The notes under the pieces were generated by a model that was not told the DNA's origin, ran no database searches, and saw only the letters and a program-made list of their open reading frames with translations. DNA of 36,073 nucleotides from a virus: IMG/VR virus record IMGVR_UViG_3300042894_003492, positions 1-36,073 of that record; one strand, 5' to 3'. This document shows, piece after piece, positions 2,878 to 30,330 of this stretch. Numbering within the stretch: position 1 is the stretch's first letter; the number at the start of each line of letters is the position of its first letter. The translations under genes were made by a program, and so were the position numbers.

Positions 2878-3354
2878 TTATTGTTTAGCTACAACCCATA
2901 CAAATTTATTGCCACCCATATAATTCACAGTGGTTGTTGCAACTGTTTGCCAATTATGCTCGTTTGAATATCTAGTAATAATTCGTTGATACAAACTTTT
3001 TAGTTTTGCATGATCAGTAGCGCAACCAAAATACAGCGTATCTACTTTATTATCATATACAAACTTAACTAATGTTTGCATAATGGTACTGAATACCGCT
3101 AACGCCTCATGTTTACCTGTGTCGGTATCTACTGGCATTCCATTTACTATTGCAGCAAACGAGAAAAAGAAGGTGTTATCCGTTAGCGCTTGATCCGGGA
3201 TAGCTTCATGTATTGGATTACCTTCTTCTACTTTAATCATTTGAATAGCGTACTGATTGCGATTAACAGCAAACATACCCATATGAGCTGGGCCCATATT
3301 CATCCAATGCACAGTCGGGATATCACGATCTTTTAATATCTCGTTTAATAACAT
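2878..3354 (-). CDS. Late protein of unknown function with capsid-targeting-like N-terminus
   Basis: 158 residues, not recognised. The N-terminus MLLNEILKDRD follows the M-x-L-x-E-I pattern shared by seven other proteins in this window; see the finding on capsid targeting. The rest contains a hydrophobic FFFSFAAIV stretch near residue 62 and a compact alternating pattern suggesting a small alpha/beta fold. No catalytic motif is obvious. The start shares one base with the stop of the upstream gene (TAATG), so both are translated from the transcript that starts at the late element near 4563. A head-packaged role is inferred from N-terminus and operon, not shown. Confidence 0.75.
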   Translation of the reverse strand: MLLNEILKDRDIPTVHWMNMGPAHMGMFAVNRNQYAIQMIKVEEGNPIHEAIPDQALTDNTFFFSFAAIVNGMPVDTDTGKHEALAVFSTIMQTLVKFVYDNKVDTLYFGCATDHAKLKSLYQRIITRYSNEHNWQTVATTTVNYMGGNKFVWVVAKQ

Positions 3355-4529
3355 TATTTTGATTCCGGTACGTGGTAGTATTTTTTAATTAAGAAATTCA
3401 AAAACTCAGTGTACTCTGGAATTTTACTCAATTCAGCAATATCTTCTTTAGGTATCGCAGTATTATCCTCTTGCATGAATTGATCTTTTTCCATATGTAA
3501 TTGAAAACGACGTTTCATACCTTTAAGTTTAGTAAAGATAATATAAATCTTACCTTTACCTTCACCATGGTAAGTATCAAACTGTGTACGTTCAACATGA
3601 GGTGCTTTTTCAGAATGTCCCAGTAAGCCTGTACACCAACCAACAGCTGCTTTGGGATAATAATCATTAAGCAACACACCACCAAAATACATTGAAGCAA
3701 ATTTATTATTCACTGTAAATGCATGAAATGTATCGTTAGTCGATGGTGACCCAACGATATTAGTAATACCTGATTCAGCTGTATGTTCAGCTTCAATAGC
3801 AGTCATATTATGTATTACATGACCGTATTCATCTTTAACAGGTTTACCGTCCTTCCCCATAACATTTTGATAAATAACATGCTTTTGACCCGCGGCGTAA
3901 ACCTTAGCTTTTTGTTCATTATCTAATTTTGTTTTGTTGGCATCGTCTAATTTAGGAACAATATCTTTTTGAAATGTTGCATATGTGTGATTATTAAGGT
4001 CAGTATTTACACCACCTTTCTTTAATGCAGCCCGTATTGCTTTATCGTCAAACTTCTTTAGATTGGTTTGAAGAGTCGTTAAATCCCCTATATGCAAATC
4101 TCTAGGCGCTTTTTTTGTACCTATGAATCTCGAGATAATCCATTTAAAATATGGATTATTAACAGTAGCAGTAACGTTGGGTCCAACATTAGTTGTATCT
4201 GTAATGTACTTAACAATTTCTTTTACACTTTTATCTTCTGCACCACCATCCTCCAGATAAGCAGCTTTGATCTGTGTTGCCAAATTAGCAATTGCGTACT
4301 CCTCATTTGGACCCTCAAGTAGCAGCCAATTATCAACCGCATACTCATCTAACTCATTTTCAGATACTAATCCAGCTAATTGCAACCAGCGACTATATTC
4401 AGATGATTTATCAGTCTCTGTTAACGTTGTTTTTTCTGGCAGCATAGTTACACTAGCTGGTAATTCTGCTACCTTATCGTGGCTCTCAGAAACTAATCCG
4501 GCCAACTGTAACATTCTATTAAGTTCCAT
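3354..4529 (-). CDS. Putative internal head protein with duplicated LQLAGLVSE motif and WCTG/FQLH C-terminal domain
   Basis: 391 residues. The N-terminus carries the motif LQLAGLVSE twice, at about residues 7-15 and 49-57, each ending in V-S-E, which resembles a cleavage site for the gp21-type prohead protease encoded just upstream on the other strand. The middle (about 75-230) is charged and helical. The C-terminal third has GWCTG, a GKGKIYIIF strand, RRFQLHMEKDQFMQEDN and a helical end; from memory this WCT...FQ.H...FM.E.D pattern recurs in uncharacterised proteins of large myophages. The ATG at 4529 follows AGGT and lies 33 bases downstream of a GATAAATA late element. I infer a late virion-internal protein; its activity is unknown. 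Confidence 0.8.
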   Translation of the reverse strand: MELNRMLQLAGLVSESHDKVAELPASVTMLPEKTTLTETDKSSEYSRWLQLAGLVSENELDEYAVDNWLLLEGPNEEYAIANLATQIKAAYLEDGGAEDKSVKEIVKYITDTTNVGPNVTATVNNPYFKWIISRFIGTKKAPRDLHIGDLTTLQTNLKKFDDKAIRAALKKGGVNTDLNNHTYATFQKDIVPKLDDANKTKLDNEQKAKVYAAGQKHVIYQNVMGKDGKPVKDEYGHVIHNMTAIEAEHTAESGITNIVGSPSTNDTFHAFTVNNKFASMYFGGVLLNDYYPKAAVGWCTGLLGHSEKAPHVERTQFDTYHGEGKGKIYIIFTKLKGMKRRFQLHMEKDQFMQEDNTAIPKEDIAELSKIPEYTEFLNFLIKKYYHVPESK

Positions 4530-4562: not shown

Positions 4563-4570
4563 TATTTATC
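4563..4570 (-). promoter_or_regulatory. Late promoter element (GATAAATA)
   Basis: On the minus strand this reads GATAAATA, one mismatch from the T4 late consensus TATAAATA, 33 bases before the ATG at 4529. It is divergent to the duplicated late element of the prohead protease gene. Confidence 0.7.
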
Positions 4571-4581
4571 GTGCTATTAGC

Positions 4582-4589
4582 TATAAATA
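4582..4589 (+). promoter_or_regulatory. Late promoter, first copy (TATAAATA)
   Basis: Exact match to the T4 late consensus, inside the first 62-bp repeat. A transcript from here would contain both copies of the ribosome binding site and the 13-codon leader frame. Confidence 0.8.
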
Positions 4590-4623
4590 TTATAATAATT
4601 TAATATTTAGGTGTAATCAAGCA

Positions 4624-4665
4624 ATGAAAACAGAACTATTAGCTATAAATATTATAATAATTTAA
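4624..4665 (+). other. 13-codon leader reading frame created by the duplication
   Basis: ATG at 4624 with its own AGGTG ribosome binding site; the peptide begins MKTELL like the protease and then runs into repeat sequence (AINIIII) and stops. It is probably a by-product of the duplication. It could reduce or modulate translation of the real start at 4686 on the longer transcript. Confidence 0.5.
4644..4651 (+). promoter_or_regulatory. Late promoter, second copy (TATAAATA)
   Basis: Identical to the first copy, 34 bases before the protease ATG at 4686. This spacing matches other late genes of the window, so it is the expected promoter of the gene. Confidence 0.82.
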
Positions 4666-4685
4666 TATTTAGGTGTAATCAAGCA

Positions 4686-5321
4686 ATGAAAACAGAACTA
4701 TTAGTAGAAACCTTATCTTACGAGCAAGGCAACCTAATTCAAGAAGCTTCTACCGATGGTAAGAACTTATTCTTGAGTGGTTGCTTTATGGAGTCAGAAG
4801 TCCGTAATAGAAACGGTCGTATATATCCAATTGCAGAAATGCAAGCAGCCGTACATAAATTAAACGAATCAATTAAAAACGATGGTGGTATTTTTGGTGA
4901 ATTAGATCACCCAAATTCATTAGTTGTTTCTAGTGATCGTATCAGTCACGTAATTACTGATCTTAGACTTGAAGGTAATCAGGTTTTTGGTAAAGCAAAA
5001 ATCTTAGGTACTCCAATGGGTCAAATTGCTAAAGTGTTGATCACTGAAAGTGGCGTTAAAATGGGTGTTAGTAGCCGTGGTGCTGGTGATGTTAACGAAA
5101 GTGGTATCGTTAGTGGATTTAACTTAATTACTATTGATATCGTATCGACACCAAGTTGCTCAAGTGCATACCCATCCTCAATATATGAGTCATTAGAATC
5201 AAGTAAAACTGGTCGCATTGTTATGTCATTAGCAGAATCAGTTCGCGAAGATCAATCAGCACAAAAATACTTAGTTGCTGAAGTTAAAAAATGGTTAAGA
5301 CAAGAATATAAACTTGGTTAA
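4686..5321 (+). CDS. 21: Prohead core protein protease (gp21-type)
   Basis: 211 residues, matching T4 gp21 (212). It is the serine protease that matures the prohead by cutting scaffold, capsid and internal proteins after short L/I-x-E motifs. NRNGRIYP near residue 41 is the typical substrate-strand region, GELDHP holds the probable catalytic His75, and GVSSRG holds the probable nucleophile Ser129 or Ser130; IDIVSTPSC follows near 152. The start is ATG at 4686 with AGGTG upstream, in the second copy of a perfect 62-bp duplication. A strong terminator follows the stop. The gp22/gp23-type scaffold and capsid genes that normally follow gp21 are not in the window. Confidence 0.95.
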   Translation: MKTELLVETLSYEQGNLIQEASTDGKNLFLSGCFMESEVRNRNGRIYPIAEMQAAVHKLNESIKNDGGIFGELDHPNSLVVSSDRISHVITDLRLEGNQVFGKAKILGTPMGQIAKVLITESGVKMGVSSRGAGDVNESGIVSGFNLITIDIVSTPSCSSAYPSSIYESLESSKTGRIVMSLAESVREDQSAQKYLVAEVKKWLRQEYKLG

Positions 5322-5331
5322 TTAGACATAA

Positions 5332-5358
5332 AAAAAGCGGATATTTTATCCGCTTTTT
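5332..5358. terminator. Bidirectional intrinsic terminator
   Basis: AAAAAGCGGATA, loop TTT, TATCCGCTTTTT: a 12-bp perfect stem with T-runs on both strands. It separates the prohead protease (+) from the acidic core protein (-), which ends at 5374. Its stem begins AAAGCGGA like the terminator at 2816. Confidence 0.93.
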
Positions 5359-8800: not shown

Positions 8801-9574
8801 GCACTAAAAAAGACAATTGAAGTACCAGCAAGTCAACAATTAGAACAAGAATCTGCACTTAATCGTATGAAAAATGGTGCAAGTATTGAGGAGGTCAAAG
8901 CACAAGGTGAAGCGCTACAAAAAGCACAAGAGCCTGCATATCTTGAAGCTGAAAAAACTCTAGCTGATACGTTAAATCACATTTCATCGCTATTTGATGG
9001 GTTAGCTGGCGCTGTTGCAACTGCAGTAGCGGCACTAGTGTTAGGCGGTGGTGCGTTACAAAAAGGTGTTGGGTTAGCTAGAGCAGCCGGAACTGCAGCA
9101 ACTGCGATAGAAGGTGCGGGTATGTTAACTATGGCGGGTGAAGCTATTGCCGGTATAGGTACTATGGTTGCTGGGGCAGTGTCATCACCGGTAGTGCTTG
9201 GTGCACTTGGAGCTGCGGCAGTAGGTTATGCTGGATACGAGGCTTATAAGTACTTTTCAGATGATGATAAATCTGAAGGTACTGCAAAACCAGCTGCTGA
9301 TGCTAATAAACAAACTGCGGTTCAAATTACACCTGATGAACCTAAAAAACTACCATCGACTCAAATTACAGAATCATTAAGTAATGAAATATCAGCTACA
9401 ATTGCTGATGTCGGTAAACAATTACTAACATTCCTTGGTAGCGTTCCAGGTGATGTTACAAATACAGCTGCTTCAAATGCAGCGTTACTAGAGGTGATGA
9501 GCAACTGGGTTAAATCACAATCTAACCTAACTCCAGTGCCCGTTATAACACCGCAACCAAACGTTACACGGTAG
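5864..9574 (+). CDS. Very large virion protein, possibly the tail tape measure
   Basis: 1236 residues starting at an ATG behind AGGTGAAAG and a late element. The protein is Ala/Thr/Gln-rich and predominantly helical, with long stretches that look like coiled coil. A compact region (about 760-870) has LGMSKEATEEFAKAVL-type helices as seen in tape-measure central domains. A hydrophobic Ala/Gly-rich block at about 1040-1135 (AGAVATAVAALVLGGGA, then GIGTMVAGAV) could be two or three membrane-active segments, and the end is Pro/Asn-rich. Length, composition and neighbourhood with spike and baseplate genes favour a tape measure or an ejected internal protein; T4 gp29 is half this size and I see no direct match. 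It has no capsid-targeting-like start. It overlaps the convergent gene by 11 bases. Confidence 0.7.
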   Translation: MALDNNEVLRLQRIIYDISGAASDFAKSVRTISEAQNNQGQNTVNLGNKSKAAADQLGAFKSAIETATKSSKTANALLGEQLKTLNRSIEAEKRQQESIKTITDAYNTGANSVNNYVSHTVSALTRSNAKISSSWKSITDNTANAVNDQFKQFGSVVDAQQYQKAFAEFNTAMGLSGNNITRANMSIVQAFVNAGTAIGETTTEFHHVRENLAKAVRENNDVSVDPANITAIDATVTALATGTQSVVDRLLTLNTALSSMTVNTSTVGNALTEIQTYQEDYAALLSSLGPYGGQFQDELQELTKTLDGAKLEQAKTAFLTKLQSTSGIIDKQDASGENTAVFDALTELLRVGRNADGTAKVQGKWFEELIKVNDQLTNAMTGVSSVNVNTSITEDAVKNLLAAQVGFVTDIKNSFSQVHADILNEAVAATASQLGRDHVSVLTAVENYAAQSISAFEANGARVLSEAAKTFADGSEVELQNTVVALVREALVGSNNQADELKSYEQLKYIGDYNQYMAQLTEKLLSTNQILGKEDTKLLQNLIKSGKDSGITDSAMLDALADIQAKVATGIDVKVADSVTNKLTESQAQLSDAFSRTAVDLEGYNKGQGKALATLRSSNTATGKMLAELAAIKRNNGSISGRDVRGAVETAGGGGAIAKEVLGAVGNMVKAVYGFAKDVNKFTSTEYDAFVSNNIQLDRTATGSTNATKLDLGEADFMKVFSDYKTAWVNEGVGAITQQMQATHDQYERVYGTDPQVIAKNQLAFKQLSQITGLTTDQIADMQHSMKQMSTVVGLSTQEMTDMTMNISKDAAFRSTLQKMNSADRAARVMQIQKQVEFAAALGMSKEATEEFAKAVLTVGEGLSPDEILGDVGGITNFVATLSQAGQQVGVSAADYGLSTDKMNAYNDALMIDASARTEEQNKLVAETGTQIAKFQNDIKQAQTEKIKGAATPEEKKSLSMQFSGVNTIAQQSEAKLSDALKKTIEVPASQQLEQESALNRMKNGASIEEVKAQGEALQKAQEPAYLEAEKTLADTLNHISSLFDGLAGAVATAVAALVLGGGALQKGVGLARAAGTAATAIEGAGMLTMAGEAIAGIGTMVAGAVSSPVVLGALGAAAVGYAGYEAYKYFSDDDKSEGTAKPAADANKQTAVQITPDEPKKLPSTQITESLSNEISATIADVGKQLLTFLGSVPGDVTNTAASNAALLEVMSNWVKSQSNLTPVPVITPQPNVTR

Positions 9575-10619
9575 GTTGTTGACCTTGTTGTGCAGGTTGT
9601 TGTTCTGGTTGTGTTTGCTGTGCAGGTTGAGCAGCTCCACGAGCAGTTGCTTGCTTATTAATCATAGCTAATTGCTGCTGTAATCTACGAATCTGATCAT
9701 CATATAATTTACTTGCACGAGCTTTTTGTACAGATATTGCAGCAATTTTGGTTTGAATTGCATTTACATTAGCTGTAATATCTTCATTCATAATATCGTT
9801 AAAATTCATAACACCTTCATAGGTTGGAGTATTAGTTACTTCATTACGGTATTTCGCTAATTTAGCCAATCTATCCGCTTCTTTCTTTTCTTCAGCTTGC
9901 TTCTTAAAGTGCTCTTCAGCACGAAGCATATCTTCTTCATTTTTAACTTTAGTGTTAGTTAATTGAATAGTTAACTTTGCTTGCTCAGCTTCAGCTTGAG
10001 CTGTCTTTGCTTTTGCTTCAGCCGTTTTTGAATCAGCATCCGCTTTTAACATATCAATAACTTTAAGTAGTATGCTTGAATCATCTACAGCAGGTGCTGC
10101 CGGTGGTAGCTCAGCAGGTAGTTCACCTTCTGCTCCCTCTGGTGGAACATCACCCTCAGGTTTATCACCATCTTTTTTGGTATCAAGCACATTATCAACT
10201 TCTTCATCTTCTGGTAGCTTTGGCCACTCAACATATAAGATATCAAAAGAGTTTCTTAAGTTAAATAAAATTTCGTTAACATCAACGTGATCTTCATCTT
10301 GTAATATCTTACTTAACGCTTGTTTAAACTCACCATCTTGCTCTTTGCTAACATATACTTTTGTAATATTACCATCAGCATCTTCTATACCATACGCTAC
10401 AGAATCTTGTTTAAGCTCATTTGCTTTTTCTGCACCTTGTAATTTTGATACTACATCAACACTACTAAAATCATTAACTTTTTTATCTTCTGTCAACTTG
10501 TACTTTTTCTTACGCTTACGTGTTATTGGTTTTGAAAACATTGGCGCACGAAATCCAGCGATATCTCCACCAGAGATCGCAGCGTCACCGCTTTCATTTA
10601 AATAATCTGTCAGTCTCAT
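9564..10619 (-). CDS. Putative internal/structural protein with capsid-targeting-like N-terminus and coiled coil
   Basis: 351 residues from the ATG at 10619; an in-frame GTG at 10631 would lie between CGGAG and the ATG, so the ATG is preferred. It begins MRLTDYLNESGDAAISGGDI; L-N-E followed by Ser is a good match to a gp21-type cleavage site. A basic KPITRKRKKKYK patch lies near residues 30-41. Residues about 140-190 are Pro/Glu-rich, 190-250 form a continuous charged Ala/Lys/Glu coiled coil, and 265-320 another helical segment. The last 30 residues are Gln/Pro/Ala low complexity. It has a perfect TATAAATA element 41 bases upstream. Function is unknown; a packaged or scaffold-type structural role is inferred. 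Confidence 0.72.
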   Translation of the reverse strand: MRLTDYLNESGDAAISGGDIAGFRAPMFSKPITRKRKKKYKLTEDKKVNDFSSVDVVSKLQGAEKANELKQDSVAYGIEDADGNITKVYVSKEQDGEFKQALSKILQDEDHVDVNEILFNLRNSFDILYVEWPKLPEDEEVDNVLDTKKDGDKPEGDVPPEGAEGELPAELPPAAPAVDDSSILLKVIDMLKADADSKTAEAKAKTAQAEAEQAKLTIQLTNTKVKNEEDMLRAEEHFKKQAEEKKEADRLAKLAKYRNEVTNTPTYEGVMNFNDIMNEDITANVNAIQTKIAAISVQKARASKLYDDQIRRLQQQLAMINKQATARGAAQPAQQTQPEQQPAQQGQQPTV

Positions 10620-11870: not shown

Positions 11871-14800
11871 ATGTACGGTCCAAATCAAAACGTAAATCCA
11901 TATACAGTGGTATCTACTGGGTTAATAGTAGATACTAACGACCCGCAAGGTCGAGGTAGAATAAAAGTATATTGTCAGGCATACGGAGACTTACCAGGTA
12001 CGCCATACGAAAACTTACCGTGGTGCAACTATATTACTCCATTTGGTGGAATGATATCTACAAATATTAATAGAGGTCCAGATGATTCTGTAACGGAAGG
12101 ATCTACATCGTATGGCATGTGGGCACTACCAAAAGTCGGTTCTGAAGCTGTTATTATGTGCTTAAATGGTGATCCAACTAGCAGAGTCTTCTTTGGATGT
12201 ATGCCTCCAAGATTCATGGAACATACTATGCCTCATGGTAGACATATTAAAGATAAAGATGGTAAATATTCTGGCCCACTATCATCTACCGAAAAACCTA
12301 TTCAACCATTATCAACTAACATAACAAAAGCGTTTGGCACAGATACTAATCGTCCTGAATACGTATCACGTGTTACAGATCCAGGGGTAACTGGATTAAG
12401 TGATCAATATATAAAAAACAAGTATACAGAATCACAAGTTGCTGATACCACGTCTGGATATAAACGATCTAGAATTAATCCAGATCGTAAATTTACCGCC
12501 AATGGTGACAACTACGATAGTCAGATATATTCAATGACTACACCAGGCTTTCATTCATGGTCAATGGATGATAGTGCTGATAATTGTAGAATACGTATTA
12601 GATCTTCTTGTGGACATAATATTATAATTGATGATACTAATGAAAGAATATACATTAACACAGCTGAAGGTAATAACTGGATTGAACTTGATCAAGATGG
12701 ATCTATTGATATCTACGCTAGCCAATCAATATCTATTAATTCTGATGCAGATATTAATTTAAATGCAAAGCAGTCTATTAGAATGCACGCAGAAGATATA
12801 CACATGAATGCTAATCATGATATCGTACTATCATCTAATCATGTCATCAGTAACAGTAGCGACGTTATAACCTCTACTGCAAAAACAAATTATTATGTAC
12901 GTTCACAAAAAACTAACTTACGTAGCACTAAAGAAATTAACACTACTAGCGATAAGATAACTACTATTGCAAAATCAAACTGCTACATTCAAGGTAAGGT
13001 GCTTAACCTTAAAGGTACTACAGCGTTAAAAGCTGAAGGTAAACGCACAACAGTTACCGGTACAAATAATCTAGTATTAAGTGGCAATACACTTGATGCG
13101 GTTACAACTAAATTTAACATTACTAATAAATCATCACTAACTATTAGAAGTGGTTCAATAATACTAGGTAGTGCCGCTATTAGTGCAACCAGTGGTATAG
13201 TAGCACCACAAGCTGTAGCAAGTAAGACTAAAGCAGCTCTAGGTGTTGCAGGCTCAGTTGGTTCAACTGGTGCAGACGTTACACCGGTATTAGTCGATGG
13301 AGTTTTAGTTGATCCAACTGTAACACCAGTTTCAAGTGATACGTCAGGTGATAGTGCTGCTTCTAACCTAACATCTGCACAACTAGCTCAGGTATTGGGA
13401 TCTATTTCAAGTGATAGTATTAGCGACACTATGGCAAATATGCCTAGTGAAGATCTTGGTCGTGCGTTATCAGAAATGTCAGATGAGGTTGTTAGTAATC
13501 TGCTTAGTAGTGTTGGTGCAGATATGTTTGGGCAAGTATCATCAAATATACCAGCTGATATGCTACCTGGTATTCTAGATAAGATTAGTGGAGCTGCAGC
13601 TGGCGGTATAATGCAATCATTACCACCAGAAGACTTAGATGGTATTTTATCTCAATTACCGTCACCTCAATTAGGTAATATATTATCAAAAATTCCATCG
13701 GATCAAATTAACGATGTGGTAGATAATATACCAGATACTAACATATTAAACGATATGCAAAGTGCTAAATTAGGTGACATGTTATCAAATATGCAGTCAG
13801 ATAAATTAGCAGCATTATTAGAAAAAATAGATCCTAATACGGTATGTAATTTACATCCTGCGCTCGCAGGCGAGTTAATTGCACGTGCAAATACAGAAAA
13901 ATCTACTGTAGATGCAAACGGGGTTGCAGTAGATCAAAACACTGTTACTCCTGATAACGCGCTTAAGTATCCTAATTTTGGTAGAATTTTAGCAACTAGA
14001 TCACCAGACGAGATTAATAGTGTACTGGCTAATATGGAGCCATCCGCATTAGGTGAAGCAATGTCGTATATACCGACCGACAAATTAACCGTAGATAGTA
14101 CCGATGTTCAACGATTTGATACATCAAAAATTATTCCCGGGAATTTTCAAAGCACCTTTTCAAATAGCATGACTGGTGCAGATATTGGCGCAAAAATTGC
14201 TGATTTACCACCTGAAGATGTCAATAATCTTATGGAGCAAATGTCACCAGATCAACGCGGTCAACTGCTAACCATGGTGCCAGATACCGGTGTTGTACTA
14301 CCACAAGTATCTAAATTTTTAACAAGTTTAAGTGACAAGGATAAAGTTGCAGTATTTACATCTGCTGCAAGTATGGATGCAACTGAAGCGCTAAATAGTA
14401 TGACAAATGATGAAGTTACGCAAATGAGTGCGGTGCTTCCAACGTTAAGTGGTCCTGATGCAACTGGAGTATTATCCGACTTTAATGATAAAGACGTAAC
14501 ATCACTACTAAATGGTATGGAGCCAGATGATGTTGGTAGTATGTTGAAAGATATACCAATTAATGATTTTACTGATTTAATTAATCGTGCACCACTTGCT
14601 GATTTAATTGATGTATTCTCAAATATGTCACCTGAATTATTGGGAGCTGATCTTGCACGTATCCCAGATGAGGAGCTTAATAACTTCTTAATGAGTATGC
14701 CAAACGAAACAATGATGAGCTTGTTAGATAAAATACCTGATCAAGATAGGGCAGCGATATTAACAAAAATGAATGGACCTAGAGCTGCATCATCATCAGC

Positions 14801-14957
14801 TGCATTAATAGCCGCATATCCATTGAGAATACCAAAACACGAACCATGGATTAGGTCAGATAATAAATCTAATACCGACATGACTCAGAAATATACAAAT
14901 AATGAGGCTGAAATTGGACGGACTCATAAAACTAGAAATAAGTATTGGAGTAGGTAA
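11871..14957 (+). CDS. 5: Baseplate central spike protein (gp5-type) with long helical-repeat extension
   Basis: 1028 residues, about twice T4 gp5 (575). Residues about 10-110 form the OB-fold (GLIVDTNDPQGRGRIKVY ... WALPKVGSEAVIMCLNGD). Residues 225-270 hold the conserved entry to the spike (TPGFHSWSMDD, IRIRSSCGHNIIIDD, IYINTAEGNNWIELD), followed to about 445 by repetitive beta strands (SINSDADINLNAKQSI) expected for the trimeric beta-helix needle. No lysozyme domain like that of T4 gp5 is seen. Residues about 495-975 are unusual: about 12-residue amphipathic helices of the form E-D-L-x-x-x-L-x-x-M-P-S repeat dozens of times, resembling MgtE N-domain repeats. The end has RIPKHEPW, which I recall from other phage gp5-like C-termini. 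AGGG precedes the ATG. Confidence 0.88.
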   Translation: MYGPNQNVNPYTVVSTGLIVDTNDPQGRGRIKVYCQAYGDLPGTPYENLPWCNYITPFGGMISTNINRGPDDSVTEGSTSYGMWALPKVGSEAVIMCLNGDPTSRVFFGCMPPRFMEHTMPHGRHIKDKDGKYSGPLSSTEKPIQPLSTNITKAFGTDTNRPEYVSRVTDPGVTGLSDQYIKNKYTESQVADTTSGYKRSRINPDRKFTANGDNYDSQIYSMTTPGFHSWSMDDSADNCRIRIRSSCGHNIIIDDTNERIYINTAEGNNWIELDQDGSIDIYASQSISINSDADINLNAKQSIRMHAEDIHMNANHDIVLSSNHVISNSSDVITSTAKTNYYVRSQKTNLRSTKEINTTSDKITTIAKSNCYIQGKVLNLKGTTALKAEGKRTTVTGTNNLVLSGNTLDAVTTKFNITNKSSLTIRSGSIILGSAAISATSGIVAPQAVASKTKAALGVAGSVGSTGADVTPVLVDGVLVDPTVTPVSSDTSGDSAASNLTSAQLAQVLGSISSDSISDTMANMPSEDLGRALSEMSDEVVSNLLSSVGADMFGQVSSNIPADMLPGILDKISGAAAGGIMQSLPPEDLDGILSQLPSPQLGNILSKIPSDQINDVVDNIPDTNILNDMQSAKLGDMLSNMQSDKLAALLEKIDPNTVCNLHPALAGELIARANTEKSTVDANGVAVDQNTVTPDNALKYPNFGRILATRSPDEINSVLANMEPSALGEAMSYIPTDKLTVDSTDVQRFDTSKIIPGNFQSTFSNSMTGADIGAKIADLPPEDVNNLMEQMSPDQRGQLLTMVPDTGVVLPQVSKFLTSLSDKDKVAVFTSAASMDATEALNSMTNDEVTQMSAVLPTLSGPDATGVLSDFNDKDVTSLLNGMEPDDVGSMLKDIPINDFTDLINRAPLADLIDVFSNMSPELLGADLARIPDEELNNFLMSMPNETMMSLLDKIPDQDRAAILTKMNGPRAASSSAALIAAYPLRIPKHEPWIRSDNKSNTDMTQKYTNNEAEIGRTHKTRNKYWSR

Positions 14958-15574: not shown

Positions 15575-16147
15575 ATGAAATTATACGAAATCGCAGTTCC
15601 AGATGTAGATATTGCTAAATTAAAGCAGTTATGTGCTCCTTATATTGAAGTATTAAAGCATACTGACGGTGCTCCATTATTTCGTGGATATAAAGGTAGT
15701 AGATTTACCAACGTTGAAGGTTTTAATGTAATAGAACCTAACTTAAATAGAGTTCCGGTTGATACCCCTCGAGTGCTACACGATGCACTAAATCAATCGT
15801 TCAAGCGTGCATTTGGTTTTCCATATCGCAATGGCGTTTTTGCATCTAGCAGTTATGATGATGCACGGTATTACGGACCGGTTTATGCGGTGTTTCCAAT
15901 TGGCGAATTGCACTATATTTGGAGCAAACAAATTAGTGATTTATATGTTCAATTGGATAAAACCTTTGACTTTGAGACACTTGAAAGCTCTAAACAATCA
16001 TTAATAAATGCTGTTGCTAGCATAGCTGATGCGTATCAAAATAATGAATTGGATAAAGCTATACAAACAGGTCATGAAGTTATGCTTAACAATAAGTGTA
16101 TTATGATTCAAAATTATGGTATGATTAAAGATGCGGTGATGTCGTGA
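15575..16147 (+). CDS. Paralogue A of a three-gene family; possible ADP-ribosyltransferase-like packaged protein
   Basis: 190 residues beginning MKLYEIAVPD, a capsid-targeting-like start. Homologous along its length to the next two proteins. Shared landmarks are C-x-P-Y-I near 20, LFRG (Arg37), V-D-T-P near 62, YRNGVFASSS (85-93), YAVFPIGELHYIWS (104-117) and GHEVM with Glu168. The order Arg-Gly, then F-x-S/T-S, then E-x-x near the end resembles the R-S-E layout of mono-ADP-ribosyltransferases such as T4 Alt, a protein packaged in the head. From memory, similar RG ... RS-x-x-FvTG ... E-v-M proteins are common and uncharacterised in myophages. The fold is inference. The late element at 15540 precedes it; the stop overlaps the next start (GTGA). 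Confidence 0.72.
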   Translation: MKLYEIAVPDVDIAKLKQLCAPYIEVLKHTDGAPLFRGYKGSRFTNVEGFNVIEPNLNRVPVDTPRVLHDALNQSFKRAFGFPYRNGVFASSSYDDARYYGPVYAVFPIGELHYIWSKQISDLYVQLDKTFDFETLESSKQSLINAVASIADAYQNNELDKAIQTGHEVMLNNKCIMIQNYGMIKDAVMS

Positions 16148-16782
16148 GATTACATGAAGTTATAGATGCAACTGATTTATCACATATTGTTGAAACTATT
16201 AAGCAGCATTGCGGACCGTATATTGAAATACTAAAGCAAAATAACGGTGATTGCTTGTTTAGAGGTAGTAATAGCGGTAAAGCCTATCCAGGTCATATTA
16301 ACTTAATTAAACCTAGATTAGATAGAACTCCATTAGATACGCCTAGATTAATACATAAGTTTTTAAATCAAGAGTTTCAAACAAAATTTCATTTTCCGTT
16401 ACGTAATGGAATATTTGCCACAGGTAATCAACCACGTGCAGCTGGATATGGTTCCGTCAGCGTAGTGTTCCCAGTAGGTGAATTAAATTTCATCTGGAGC
16501 CCTAATATAGAAGATCTGTTTGCTGTTGTTGACACTACAATTGCTAACTTGGGAGATGGTACAGCGTTTGATCCAGATGAGGATCGTTTAGACAGTACTT
16601 TACCTGCTAGTGACTACAACAATAAGCTGCTGCTTGATAAACTCAATCAATATATTAATACCTATACAAATAAAGATTTACTTGCAGCTACTGCCAGTGA
16701 TCACGAAATAATGTTTGCAAATGATTGCTATATGGTTAGTATCTATGATTATGGAAAAGTAGTTCAGGAGTTAATAAAATGA
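16144..16782 (+). CDS. Paralogue B of the family; possible ADP-ribosyltransferase-like packaged protein
   Basis: 212 residues starting at GTG 16144 inside GTGA, translationally coupled to paralogue A. N-terminus MRLHEVIDATD fits the shared capsid-targeting-like pattern. Landmarks line up with its neighbours: C-G-P-Y-I (23-27), LFRG with Arg40, PLDTPRLIH (63-71), LRNGIFATGN (86-95), VVFPVGELNFIWSP (107-120), and HEIM with Glu188. An insertion of about 20 acidic residues (GDGTAFDPDEDRLDS) lies before the last conserved block, longer than in A. The second motif is A-T-G rather than A-S-S, so a strict S-T-S element is absent. Confidence 0.72.
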   Translation: MRLHEVIDATDLSHIVETIKQHCGPYIEILKQNNGDCLFRGSNSGKAYPGHINLIKPRLDRTPLDTPRLIHKFLNQEFQTKFHFPLRNGIFATGNQPRAAGYGSVSVVFPVGELNFIWSPNIEDLFAVVDTTIANLGDGTAFDPDEDRLDSTLPASDYNNKLLLDKLNQYINTYTNKDLLAATASDHEIMFANDCYMVSIYDYGKVVQELIK

Positions 16783-17372
16783 AACTAAATGAAATTCTTA
16801 ATAATGATAATCATAGCATCGATGAAATTGTAGCAATATTAAAACGTGATTGTGCTCCAATTATTGCGGAGTATAATAACGTTGGGGTGCCATTATCTCG
16901 AGGAATACAAGATAGCAATATACCACCAATGACCGTTATTCATCCATCACTAGATAGTAGAAGTCCTAAAGATACTAATATAACGATTCATAATTATATT
17001 AACGATTACTTTACTAAGCATGCTGGGTTACCATTCCGTAATGCGATCTTTGCAACCTCTGATTGGGAAGTTGCAGAAGTTTATGGTGAAGCATATGTGT
17101 TGTTTCCTATTGGACCATTAAAGTACTTGTGGAGCCCTCAAGTAGGTGATTTGTACGATACAGTGTCAAAGCTTGAATCTAGTAAAGATGCAGATCCAGC
17201 AAAAAAATATGATCAACAATTCTATCAAAAATTAGATCAATATCTTTCAACATATATATCTAAGAACCTCCACGCAGCATTAGAAGATGGTAGTGAAGTT
17301 ATGATTGCTAATAACTGTTACGTGGTCACAATGGACTTATGGTTTGATCATTTAGAAGAGGCACTTTCATGA
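16779..17372 (+). CDS. Paralogue C of the family; possible ADP-ribosyltransferase-like packaged protein
   Basis: 197 residues, coupled to paralogue B through ATGA. It begins MKLNEILNNDN, the closest to the shared N-terminal pattern. Landmarks are C-A-P-I-I (25-29), LSRG with Arg41, SPKDTNITIH (62-71), FRNAIFATSD (86-95), VLFPIGPLKYLWSP (107-120) and SEVM with Glu173. The three paralogues have diverged widely outside these blocks, which suggests an old duplication with different targets rather than a recent copy. The stop overlaps the start of the kinase gene (ATGA). Confidence 0.72.
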   Translation: MKLNEILNNDNHSIDEIVAILKRDCAPIIAEYNNVGVPLSRGIQDSNIPPMTVIHPSLDSRSPKDTNITIHNYINDYFTKHAGLPFRNAIFATSDWEVAEVYGEAYVLFPIGPLKYLWSPQVGDLYDTVSKLESSKDADPAKKYDQQFYQKLDQYLSTYISKNLHAALEDGSEVMIANNCYVVTMDLWFDHLEEALS

Positions 17373-18097
17373 AATTGCATGACATATTATCAGAAGGAAT
17401 CTACGACAAAGGTATTTTTAAGTGCTTATTCTTAGGTGGTATTCCTGCTAGTGGAAAAAGCACAATCGTGAAAGATATTATTCAAGAACTAACTGTATCA
17501 CATAGCATTAAACCACGCGTATTAGATTACGATAAATTTTATGAATACTTGAGCAAGAAGCATGATGTACCTATTAGTACAAGCGCTGAAGTTGAGGCTC
17601 CAGGAGCAGTATCAATTCAAAATAGAACTAAAGAGTTAATGTCATCACAACTTGAGTTATACCTAACCAGTATGCTACCAGTTATTATTGACACTACCGC
17701 ATCTAATGTTCATAGCACTATCGTGCGTATGCGTAGACTACGTCAATACGGTTATGATGTAATGATGTTATATAAAGAATCTGAATTAGAGCGATCATTA
17801 ACTCGGGCTGAATCACGTAGACGCTTTGTGCCACCAGAGTATATTAAAGATACGCACGAATCAAAACCTAGAACGATTGAAAAGATGCAAAAAGTGTTTA
17901 ATAATGCACACTATCCGTTGCAAATACTAGGTGTAGATGAGGAGGTGGTGACTGTAATGCCTGCTATAGTACAATTCTTTACTAGTCCAATACGTAATCC
18001 TATTGGCTTGCAGCAGGTTGATAGTCTAAAATCTGCAGAACGTAAATATATTATACGTGGGCAGACTCCTCCAGTTGATTGGTATGGAAAATATTAA
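17369..18097 (+). CDS. P-loop kinase (zeta-toxin/AAA-like) with capsid-targeting-like N-terminus
   Basis: 242 residues, last gene of the coupled four-gene cluster. N-terminus MKLHDILSEGIYDKGIFK contains L-S-E followed by Gly, a good gp21-type cleavage site. Walker A is GGIPASGKST at 23-32. A hydrophobic strand ending in D-T-T (VIIDTTAS, about 106-112) takes the Walker B position as in zeta-toxin and polynucleotide-kinase relatives, and an Arg-rich lid (RAESRRRFVPPEY) follows. The C-terminal segment FFTSPIRNPIGLQQV is a separate small element that I recall in other phage proteins of this type. Substrate unknown: a nucleotide, nucleic acid or protein phosphorylation role is possible. It overlaps the convergent gene by four bases. 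Confidence 0.8.
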   Translation: MKLHDILSEGIYDKGIFKCLFLGGIPASGKSTIVKDIIQELTVSHSIKPRVLDYDKFYEYLSKKHDVPISTSAEVEAPGAVSIQNRTKELMSSQLELYLTSMLPVIIDTTASNVHSTIVRMRRLRQYGYDVMMLYKESELERSLTRAESRRRFVPPEYIKDTHESKPRTIEKMQKVFNNAHYPLQILGVDEEVVTVMPAIVQFFTSPIRNPIGLQQVDSLKSAERKYIIRGQTPPVDWYGKY

Positions 18098-23203: not shown

Positions 23204-24220
23204 CTAGCCAGCTTTTGACTTGAATAATTCAAGATTGTGAATAAGCGTATCGTGAACCCATGGGAACTTAACGTTGCGCTTAGCATAATCAAACAAGCTT
23301 ACTGGGCTATCATTTAACGCAGATTGCTGATACGTGGCAAGATTTGTACGGACATTATTAAAATCTACTACACCGTTAAGCCATACTAACAATAACAATT
23401 TAACATCTGTATCGCTACGACCGTGTAAGAATTCATACAATGAGCGATCTGCAGCTTTTGATTCTAACAACCGTTGAAGTTTCTGACATAACTCACCAGA
23501 TATTGATCTTAAAATAACACTCACTTTTTTAGTTTTATCATCTAATGCTTCTTCAAGAGCATCAATGTTGTAAATGCTCAGTAACTCTGATTTACGTTTC
23601 GTAAAATCATTATTGAAAATAGTATCTAGAACAACTAGTTTGTCTTTGTTTAGTAGCAGTACTTGTACTTGCTCACCATCGTGAATTAGTTCATTAGAGT
23701 CTGCAAACCCACTATAATTTAAAGCAAGTAGAATTTTAGCCCATTGTTGTTGATATCTTTCAGGACTTAACTCTTTAGCAATGTATTTTGTTAATTGCCA
23801 GAACGCTTCAAATGGTTGTTTGTATGCAATGCGCTCAAGTTCTTTATCTAGATTAACTAAATGTGAGTATCTATTTTTTAAAACATTAATATCGTTTTCT
23901 AAGTTTCTATATCTATCAGTAGCTAAGATTTCGTGTGGAAATTTTATGATATGAATATATGGGTGGTTGTTTGCATACGGATAATTGTCAAAGTTTTGAT
24001 TTTGCTCAACATTATACTTAGCCCAAGTTGACTTTAGCGGGTAAGCATATATTCCGGCTGGAGCGTCGGTTGACTTAGTGCTAATCGGTGGCTTACTGTT
24101 TTTTGACATACTAATATAAACAGCAGCATCATTCTTATACGGTAGCAACTGCTCATACGCTGATCGTTTTGTTTTAGGTGCTGAAGATTCTTCAGCTTCA
24201 AATAATTCATATAATTTCAT
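23204..24220 (-). CDS. Putative packaged protein with capsid-targeting-like N-terminus and 'GIYAYPL' motif
   Basis: 338 residues beginning MKLYELFEAEESSAPK, which fits the shared N-terminal pattern and has L-F-E followed by Ala as a possible protease site. Residues about 33-60 read VYISMSKNSKPPIS ... APAGIYAYPL. From memory, 'iSfT...G(I)...TP.GIYaYPL' proteins recur uncharacterised in many myophages, usually with similar starts. The rest is helical with no known catalytic motif. There is no clear Shine-Dalgarno before the ATG, but a perfect TATAAATA lies 30 bases upstream. Its stop abuts the convergent early operon with no gap. Confidence 0.76.
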   Translation of the reverse strand: MKLYELFEAEESSAPKTKRSAYEQLLPYKNDAAVYISMSKNSKPPISTKSTDAPAGIYAYPLKSTWAKYNVEQNQNFDNYPYANNHPYIHIIKFPHEILATDRYRNLENDINVLKNRYSHLVNLDKELERIAYKQPFEAFWQLTKYIAKELSPERYQQQWAKILLALNYSGFADSNELIHDGEQVQVLLLNKDKLVVLDTIFNNDFTKRKSELLSIYNIDALEEALDDKTKKVSVILRSISGELCQKLQRLLESKAADRSLYEFLHGRSDTDVKLLLLVWLNGVVDFNNVRTNLATYQQSALNDSPVSLFDYAKRNVKFPWVHDTLIHNLELFKSKAG

Positions 24221-29200: not shown

Positions 29201-30330
29201 CAGCACATCTACATAATCAATTATCTAGTAACGTTAATTCTATAGTAATTAAACCTAAGAATACGCAATTTGGTGGGCTGTTCCAAATTCATGCATTAGA
29301 GAATGAGATTATTATTCCTGCTATCACGTTAGACGACATAGAAATTGTATCATACTTAACATCATTAAATATTGGGGCAGCTGCTAACAACGTAAGTAAT
29401 GTAAATTACGGTACAGCTACAAACGATCTCGCAGATATGGTTGCAAGATATGAAGCAAACTTTACAAATAAACCATCTAGTAATGAAGCGAGTCCTGCAC
29501 AACCTAGAGTAAGAATTTCACCACCATCACCAATTTCATTAATTGATAACCTGGTACCGAGACCAACTACGCTTACACCGAGCACAACTACAACTCGTGC
29601 ACCAAGCACTAGCACCACTAGTACAACAACTAGCACTAGTACAACACGTGCACCAAGCACTACTAGTACAACAACTAGCACTAGTACAACACGTGCACCA
29701 AGCACAACAAGCACTACTAGTACAACAAGCACTACAACGACAACAACTACAACTACTCAATCACCTACTGCTATACAAAAACCAATAAAACTTAGAATAC
29801 TTGGTAATCGACAAATTGGTTCAGTATTAACGGCTGATCTAAGCGACTTTACAGCTGCAGGTATGACTATTGATGGTCCACCAGATTGGGATTTTAACTT
29901 CTCTTGGGTGGCAAATACAAATGCATATACAATACCAACTCTTGCAAGTACATCTTTGACGAGATCATTAAACGTCACGTGTAGAGTTTTTGTTAACGGT
30001 GTAGTGTATGCGACGTATACTAGACTAGAAATATCTAACACAACTGGTGCATTACCAGCAGGACCTTTCTGGATATCAGGCGACACGGTAGCAGGGCGTA
30101 TGCTAACAGCTAACTCTAGTAATCTAAGTGACGCTGATGGTATTGTAAGCGGTTCAATGCATTATGTTTGGACAAAAGATGGTGTTAACGTGAATAGAGA
30201 TAATATGACATACACACCACCTTCGACTGCGATTGGATCAGTAATTGATTGTACCGTTCAATGGAACACTACTGCTGGTGAGACAAAATATGTACAATCA
30301 GCAAACCAAGTCACACTTACAGCTCCTTAG
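26263..30330 (+). CDS. 6: Baseplate wedge protein gp6 with C-terminal Thr/Ser linker and Ig-like domains
   Basis: 1355 residues, twice T4 gp6 (660). The N-terminal 110 residues match the family closely: FINFASFDFAAVKQSLIEYF, LYHPEFNNWIETDEFVMQIE, YRLDMIANENLLSTAQRKDS and LAKFISYNQSRNIAGTGLV. gp6 forms the backbone ring of the baseplate wedge. The gp6-like body runs to about residue 1090. Residues about 1105-1165 are almost only Thr and Ser with three RAPST blocks, a flexible mucin-like linker. Two beta-rich modules follow (about 1170-1265 and 1265-1355); the second, GDTVAGRMLTA ... LSDADGIVSG ... YVWTKDG, is typical of Ig-like/cadherin-like bacterial adhesion repeats. The extension probably projects from the baseplate and binds surfaces. 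No clear Shine-Dalgarno precedes the ATG. Confidence 0.93.
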   Translation: MAITLSKAESWDKIYQASKFINFASFDFAAVKQSLIEYFKLYHPEFNNWIETDEFVMQIEAFAYVCELYSYRLDMIANENLLSTAQRKDSILKLAKFISYNQSRNIAGTGLVKITSISTTEDVYDFNGNNLANKKITWNDANNANWKSQFFTVISAIINSDFGDVVPSNRVQIYDQIFELYTIKNIPLTNGVISYSAKVANNNIPMELVSAELSEAGPSEQRPNSNNKFNVIYGIDGLGDSSNYTGFFMLTKQGSLQKTQSTFDGVTTHSSYTPAFDNVNNTDVWVNQLVNDSDVNAIKWTAVDTTNAQNIIFNSDYSKTKYEIETLDNDNIKILFGDGDFADIPNGKFDFWFRVSDPNPSPIPTSAISDLTTSIAYTGSDNNTYYTIINYSLVHPIQNAAPSEDKDHIKVNAPSVYYTQNRMVNGQDYNSYLLQDHSILKLSAINRTYAGHSKYTTFNDASGTYDVINHFGSDLSVYINYDVATIKVSANTSAIALISNYLQPLLSNAQNTCYRTLKKLPARRLFTPAEKHRFVFEQLGEIYDITDGNPPNPKLPADIYYIENESTYKPTTTIPAAERAKLEWIFSINKANGFWTITYRTAAIVTHSPTTKFWNNNTTDIINILDINTGSSRTAANSPKQSYDIILPVIGNRTYDSTSNTGLQDFNSLLVTVMDKNNDGFPDIEEVTKLINNTIVTNVADTQLYEDSKYGRLFNRVFNAPFDSYNISNPTIQLDYDFLTTDVTITGNVTKEYDVDAAGVKTTNITWTESANPIANSITITNPGPNSIITVTIKDFVYLYRATLDDAFQPAPGNESVKAWLVEELALNHIHYIRKPGRSNLNFLWQHTPTTDTRINPSTSNIIDCFIITNGYYESVLSWVQGTSNIKPVKPTPYELSNTYGKLIQNKMISDELVLSSGEFKIIFGKYASPELQATVVVVKSDTSTLTDNQIKTQIVSEVYNYFDINYCNFGDTFNFTALSAHLHNQLSSNVNSIVIKPKNTQFGGLFQIHALENEIIIPAITLDDIEIVSYLTSLNIGAAANNVSNVNYGTATNDLADMVARYEANFTNKPSSNEASPAQPRVRISPPSPISLIDNLVPRPTTLTPSTTTTRAPSTSTTSTTTSTSTTRAPSTTSTTTSTSTTRAPSTTSTTSTTSTTTTTTTTTQSPTAIQKPIKLRILGNRQIGSVLTADLSDFTAAGMTIDGPPDWDFNFSWVANTNAYTIPTLASTSLTRSLNVTCRVFVNGVVYATYTRLEISNTTGALPAGPFWISGDTVAGRMLTANSSNLSDADGIVSGSMHYVWTKDGVNVNRDNMTYTPPSTAIGSVIDCTVQWNTTAGETKYVQSANQVTLTAP
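29617..29705 (+). repeat. 45-bp direct repeats in the gp6 Thr/Ser linker
   Basis: A segment from ACTAGTACAACAACTAGCAC to GCACCAAGCAC occurs at 29617-29660 and again, identically, at 29662-29705, an offset of 45 bases; shorter related pieces continue to about 29760. The offset is a multiple of three, so length changes keep the frame. Confidence 0.9.

Follow-up and report, generated by a model that had tools for sequence, protein, structure and literature searches.

A 62-bp tandem duplication at the predicted late promoter of a prohead protease gene in a T4-like phage

Two identical 62-bp units lie end to end at the start of a prohead protease gene in a phage contig, which raises the question of whether the second copy belongs to the genome, how it arose and what it would do to expression of the gene. 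We addressed this in the window, the whole 36,073-bp stretch of DNA analyzed, which is part of a large T4-like phage and encodes topoisomerase II subunits, a clamp loader, baseplate gp25- and gp5-like proteins, an endolysin and a DNA ligase; a gp23-like major head protein is encoded on an overlapping contig. The best explanation overall, to which we assign a probability of about 0.75, is a real and recent duplication that arose by a short-homology step, placed two late promoters in series and left expression unchanged or modestly raised. The features concerned are listed below.

4563–4570, minus strand: GATAAATA, predicted late promoter of the divergent gene at 3354–4529 (minus strand), 41 nt upstream of its ATG and outside the duplication
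4574–4635, plus strand: unit 1 of the duplication, 62 bp, comprising CTATTAG, the late promoter, the ribosome-binding site (RBS) and ATGAAAACAGAA (TRF, sequence)
4582–4589, plus strand: outer predicted late promoter P1, TATAAATA, with a predicted +1 at ~4595 (motif enrichment)
4624–4665, plus strand: 13-codon leader frame MKTELLAINIIII on the P1 transcript, with its TAA stop at 4663–4665 (sequence)
4636–4697, plus strand: unit 2, with the same sequence as unit 1 (TRF)
4644–4651, plus strand: inner predicted late promoter P2, TATAAATA, with a predicted +1 at ~4657 (motif enrichment)
4671–4675, plus strand: AGGTG Shine-Dalgarno-like site of the protease gene, with its unit 1 copy at 4609–4613 (sequence)
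4686–5321, plus strand: gp21-like prohead (head maturation) protease, 211 aa (PF03420, E = 7.8e-23; phrog_207, E = 2.3e-56)
4698–4704, plus strand: third copy of CTATTAG, 7 bp, forming protease codons 5–7 and, with 4574–4580, marking the presumed microhomology (sequence)
5331–5358, both strands: bidirectional terminator-like hairpin with a 12 bp stem and A and T flanks (fold −13.9 kcal/mol, z −3.2)

Structure and setting of the duplicated region

The perfect tandem duplication at 4574–4704 comprises 2 × 62 bp + 7 bp, reported by TRF as a period of 62 with 2.1 copies, a 100% match and 0% indels. Duplicated in each unit are CTATTAG, the TATAAATA box, AGGTG, ATG and the first four codons of the protease gene. 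Because 62 is not divisible by 3, the two ATGs, the outer one at 4624 and the true protease start at 4686, lie in different frames. A perfect 131-bp match with a period of 62 cannot be a product of chance. In 568 kb of sequence taken from the window and from related loci, perfect noncoding tandem copies with a unit of at least 20 bp occurred elsewhere only as the 57–58 bp arrays of relatives L011 and L012 and as a pentamer run in L018 and L019; the remaining tandem matches look like coding low-complexity sequence. A preliminary description of this DNA had proposed a 62-bp tandem duplication with two TATAAATA promoters, two Shine-Dalgarno sites and two ATGs, with which TRF and the sequence agree. 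Its 13-codon leader frame on the outer message could be read at 4624–4665, and its identification of a prohead protease was confirmed by the match to PF03420 (Peptidase_S77), which scored 81.4 bits against a cut-off of 27.

The same description had called the duplicated promoter a late one, and positional enrichment argues strongly for this role of the TATAAATA boxes. Within the 74 kb formed by the window and the overlapping contig, NATAAATA (ATAAATA) occurred 15–90 nt upstream of 19 of 65 ORFs, compared to 0.9 expected (binomial p ~3e-22), and the ORFs it precedes, which lie on both strands, are head and tail genes and others that are probably late. A count of TATAAATA over the whole window revealed no enrichment, the signal being positional. 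The first base before ATAAATA varies (T, G, C or A), as is the case in reported late promoters from other T4-like phages (PMC1524935), and the +1 predictions take the box as −13 to −6 according to T4 spacing (PMC1524935). In L002, the next relative, TATAAATA stands at the place of the window's box at 4563–4570. Upstream of the ORFs, AGGTG was found in 5/65 cases and AGGT in 13/65. Among ~40 proteins scanned, which included the clamp loader, the late sigma factor gp55 and the co-activator gp33 were not found; the contigs are genome fragments.

The protease gene is flanked on its 5' side by the divergent gene and on its 3' side by the hairpin and then a convergent acidic gene, and therefore only protease expression should be affected. 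On the basis of its modeled fold, the hairpin would end the protease transcript, while a consensus terminator scan called no terminators and left 5331–5358 unflagged. The gene is probably monocistronic, and P1 and P2 are probably its only promoters. Here it stands alone, with topoisomerase genes as neighbors and a late promoter of its own, an arrangement roughly like that in Agrobacterium phage Atu_ph07 (L093). In the isolates XacN1, RAS14 and Cassandra (L090, L091 and L092), the protease gene belongs to the head operon, where it follows the portal gene with almost no spacer; these spacers were set aside as not comparable because the upstream head-operon gene nearly abuts gp21.

Several other features of the window were recorded. 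Many proteins, several of them encoded behind late promoters, share short common N-termini (such as MKLYELFEAEE, MKLHDILSEG, MRLTDYLNES and MLLNEILKD); carriers lie at 2878–3354(−), 3354–4529(−), 9564–10619(−), 15575–18097(+) and 23204–24220(−). These N-termini resemble the T4 capsid targeting sequence cleaved by gp21, and judging from this resemblance the proteins may be loaded into the head and later ejected. At 15575–17372(+), three consecutive paralogous genes each carry the shared N-terminal motif, the first and third matching phrog_11975/phrog_15932; after them, 17369–18097 encodes a kinase-like protein of the zeta-toxin/AAA_33 type (PF06414, E 5.6e-9). At 11871–14957(+), a baseplate protein resembling gp5/VgrG (Phage_base_V) is an unusual fusion, its C-terminal half consisting of repeats that match MgtE_N (E 3.1e-34). 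Lastly, a Thr/Ser-rich tandem repeat, STTSTTTSTSTTRAPSTT, forms a linker at 29581–29755(+) within a 1355-aa structural protein.

Reality, age and origin

An exact search of IMG/VR and of bacterial and archaeal genomes with the core of the duplication unit yielded a sole match, the 65,161-bp IMG/VR contig IMGVR_UViG_3300042890_003772 (G001/L001), in which protease and duplication are identical to those of the window. No near relatives of the window were detected by megablast among annotated phages. Base-by-base comparison over the 26,775-bp overlap revealed 5 SNPs and zero gaps, and L001 represents the same phage species. The contigs terminate at different positions, with the duplication internal in both, 4.6 kb from the end in the window and 22 and 43 kb from the ends in L001. 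If the true genome had a single unit and the second were an assembly artefact, exactly identical copies would be expected, and both contigs are metagenomic and were probably assembled with similar software. Assemblers of this kind, however, collapse tandem repeats and do not create them, and an overlap of 7 bp would not be long enough to mislead one. Moreover, an artefact is improbable because two assemblies that differ in SNPs and in their ends show the same event, remote from those ends, although the samples could share reads or a co-assembly. We thus regard an artefact as very unlikely indeed and the duplication as genuine. Of the two possibilities in the preliminary description, a very recent event or an artefact, the latter is largely excluded by this separately ended contig with 5 SNPs in 26.8 kb, and the former accords with two identical copies here and one unit in the nearest relative.

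Comparison of unit numbers in related genomes gave two for the window and L001 and one for L002 (protease/gp21 94% identical at the amino acid level; unit GTGCAGTTTAACTATAAATATTTAAATATTTAAATATTTAGGTGCATACACGCAATGAAAACAGAATTATTAG) and for L003–L006 (protease 75% identical). The duplication is therefore derived and, as judged by sequence divergence, young. Between the window and L002, 29 of 78 fourfold sites in the protease gene differ, corresponding to 0.51 substitutions per site after correction, as do 8 of 46 bases in the stretch from promoter to ATG. The two 62-bp copies show 0 differences, which sets an upper 95% bound of ~0.05 per site. By this reasoning, the duplication would be younger than roughly 10–28% of the time since the L002 split, assuming that the copies diverge like spacer or fourfold sites, without homogenization by recombination.

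A candidate for the route by which it arose is provided by the 7 extra bases, which probably mark the mechanism of origin. CTATTAG occurs at 4574, 4636 and 4698, that is, at both unit ends, and one copy now forms the junction between the units. Among random breakpoint pairs, 0.12% share 7 bp or more. In T4, tandem duplications and amplifications have junctions at short microhomologies, typically of 6–10 bp (PMC9391042), and the same route is therefore the most economical explanation here. Short-homology recombination or template switching would have joined the CTATTAG of protease codons 5–7 to a CTATTAG just upstream of the late promoter, thereby copying 62 bp with promoter, RBS, start codon and four codons. 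We infer both the microhomology step and the ancestral upstream CTATTAG, where L002 differs: this relative has the downstream arm as TTATTAG and a different sequence upstream of the promoter.

Consequences for protease expression

From P2, an ordinary message with a 29-nt leader and without the leader start codon would be expected. The P1 message would carry an extra 62 nt including the 13-codon frame, which reads ATG AAA ACA GAA CTA TTA GCT ATA AAT ATT ATA ATA ATT TAA and stops 20 nt before the true ATG, ahead of the second Shine-Dalgarno site and thus of the true RBS. With a second late promoter, transcription would be expected to rise by at most a factor of about two, or not measurably, and a gain could be counteracted by interference with translation of the P1 message. 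With both promoters presumably in use, late expression of the protease would most likely stay the same or increase modestly. Hairpin regulation by the leader RNA was considered and rejected; the two predicted leader RNAs fold no better than shuffled sequence and were in fact less structured than the shuffles.

Selection of the second late promoter for raised prohead protease dosage would fit the presence of the duplication in both contigs of the species and the apparent lack of another promoter for the gene. It also has a precedent in T7, where evolution with an altered RNA polymerase expressed at a low level repeatedly produced promoter duplications (PMC6171733). We nevertheless consider it rather unlikely: the two contigs, 5 SNPs apart, may represent one lineage, a young neutral duplication would look alike and T4 needs only ~55 gp21 copies per prohead core (PMC9958956), such that a higher dosage is not obviously useful. 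An effect in the opposite direction, in which the leader frame on the outer transcript occupies ribosomes and lowers protease synthesis, appears quite improbable. The leader shares the RBS of the gene, and a ribosome terminating so close to the true ATG could cover the second Shine-Dalgarno site, but close upstream termination could equally favor re-initiation, the inner promoter still yields an unburdened message, leader RNA structure is not unusual (z +1.65) and none of the relatives compared has a comparable leader. Such damping, suggested in the preliminary description, is possible but unsupported, with the leader ending before the second Shine-Dalgarno site, no leader ATG on the P2 message and an unstructured leader RNA. 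The accompanying premise that the protease is toxic when mistimed is weakened by T4 gp21, which is made as a zymogen in which the N-terminus keeps the active site blocked up to completion of the prohead (PMC9958956).

A further possibility concerns the spacer itself, which in a sister group (protease 62–64% identical) holds a different tandem array:

L008, 2759–2951; L011, 999–1248; L012, 2760–2951: 57–58 bp array containing ACCAT...ATGGT inverted motifs, located in the spacer on the 5' side of the protease promoter

Copy numbers are 3.3 (L008), 4.4 (L011) and 3.3 (L012), and L009 and L010 lack the array. The units contain no promoter and are unrelated in sequence to the 62-bp unit. Arrays in the same spacer suggest that it is somewhat prone to duplication, an anecdotal observation from two lineages. 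Recurrent gain and loss of units in the spacer that separates the two divergent late promoters, with numbers varying in populations, would agree with the patchy occurrence of the arrays but seems unlikely to us, as the 57–58 bp units exclude the promoter, only two lineages are involved and short direct repeats from which such events could start are frequent throughout (~19 pairs per kb). It would be a long shot to regard the spacer between gp21 and its neighbor as a copy-number-variable regulatory site, at which slippage or recombination creates subpopulations that differ in how many promoters or spacer units they have and thereby tune protease dosage.

Comparison with known systems

A real, recent short-homology duplication with neutral to modest effect, the reading we prefer, would be a natural case of a mutation class mostly known from laboratory evolution, with the promoter of one structural gene doubled in a single recombination step. 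If the second promoter alters protease dosage, the locus offers a clean test of promoter number versus capsid maturation; if it is neutral, it shows how readily such duplications arise.

The TATAAATA box is the same 8-bp element as in the gp55/gp33/gp45-dependent T4 late promoter (PMC2988020, PMC1524935), found as far upstream of late structural genes as expected, with no need for a −35 element and with a variable first base; unlike in T4, two boxes 62 bp apart precede one gene, and gp55 was not located on the incomplete contigs. The T4 duplications of rII, genes 16–18 and dmd-tifA (PMC9391042) likewise are tandem copies that keep one 6–10 bp microhomology between them, in a setting of T4-like replication and recombination, but the unit here measures only 62 bp, is regulatory instead of covering whole genes and was found in nature, not under laboratory selection. 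Experimentally evolved T7 (PMC6171733) shares a duplicated phage promoter that can alter expression without point mutation, yet involves promoters of a single-subunit RNA polymerase and a known selection, whereas the promoter here is of the T4 late type and has no selection known to act on it. A new kind of system is thus not required: the origin is of the T4 short-homology type, and the outcome is of the T7 promoter-duplication type.
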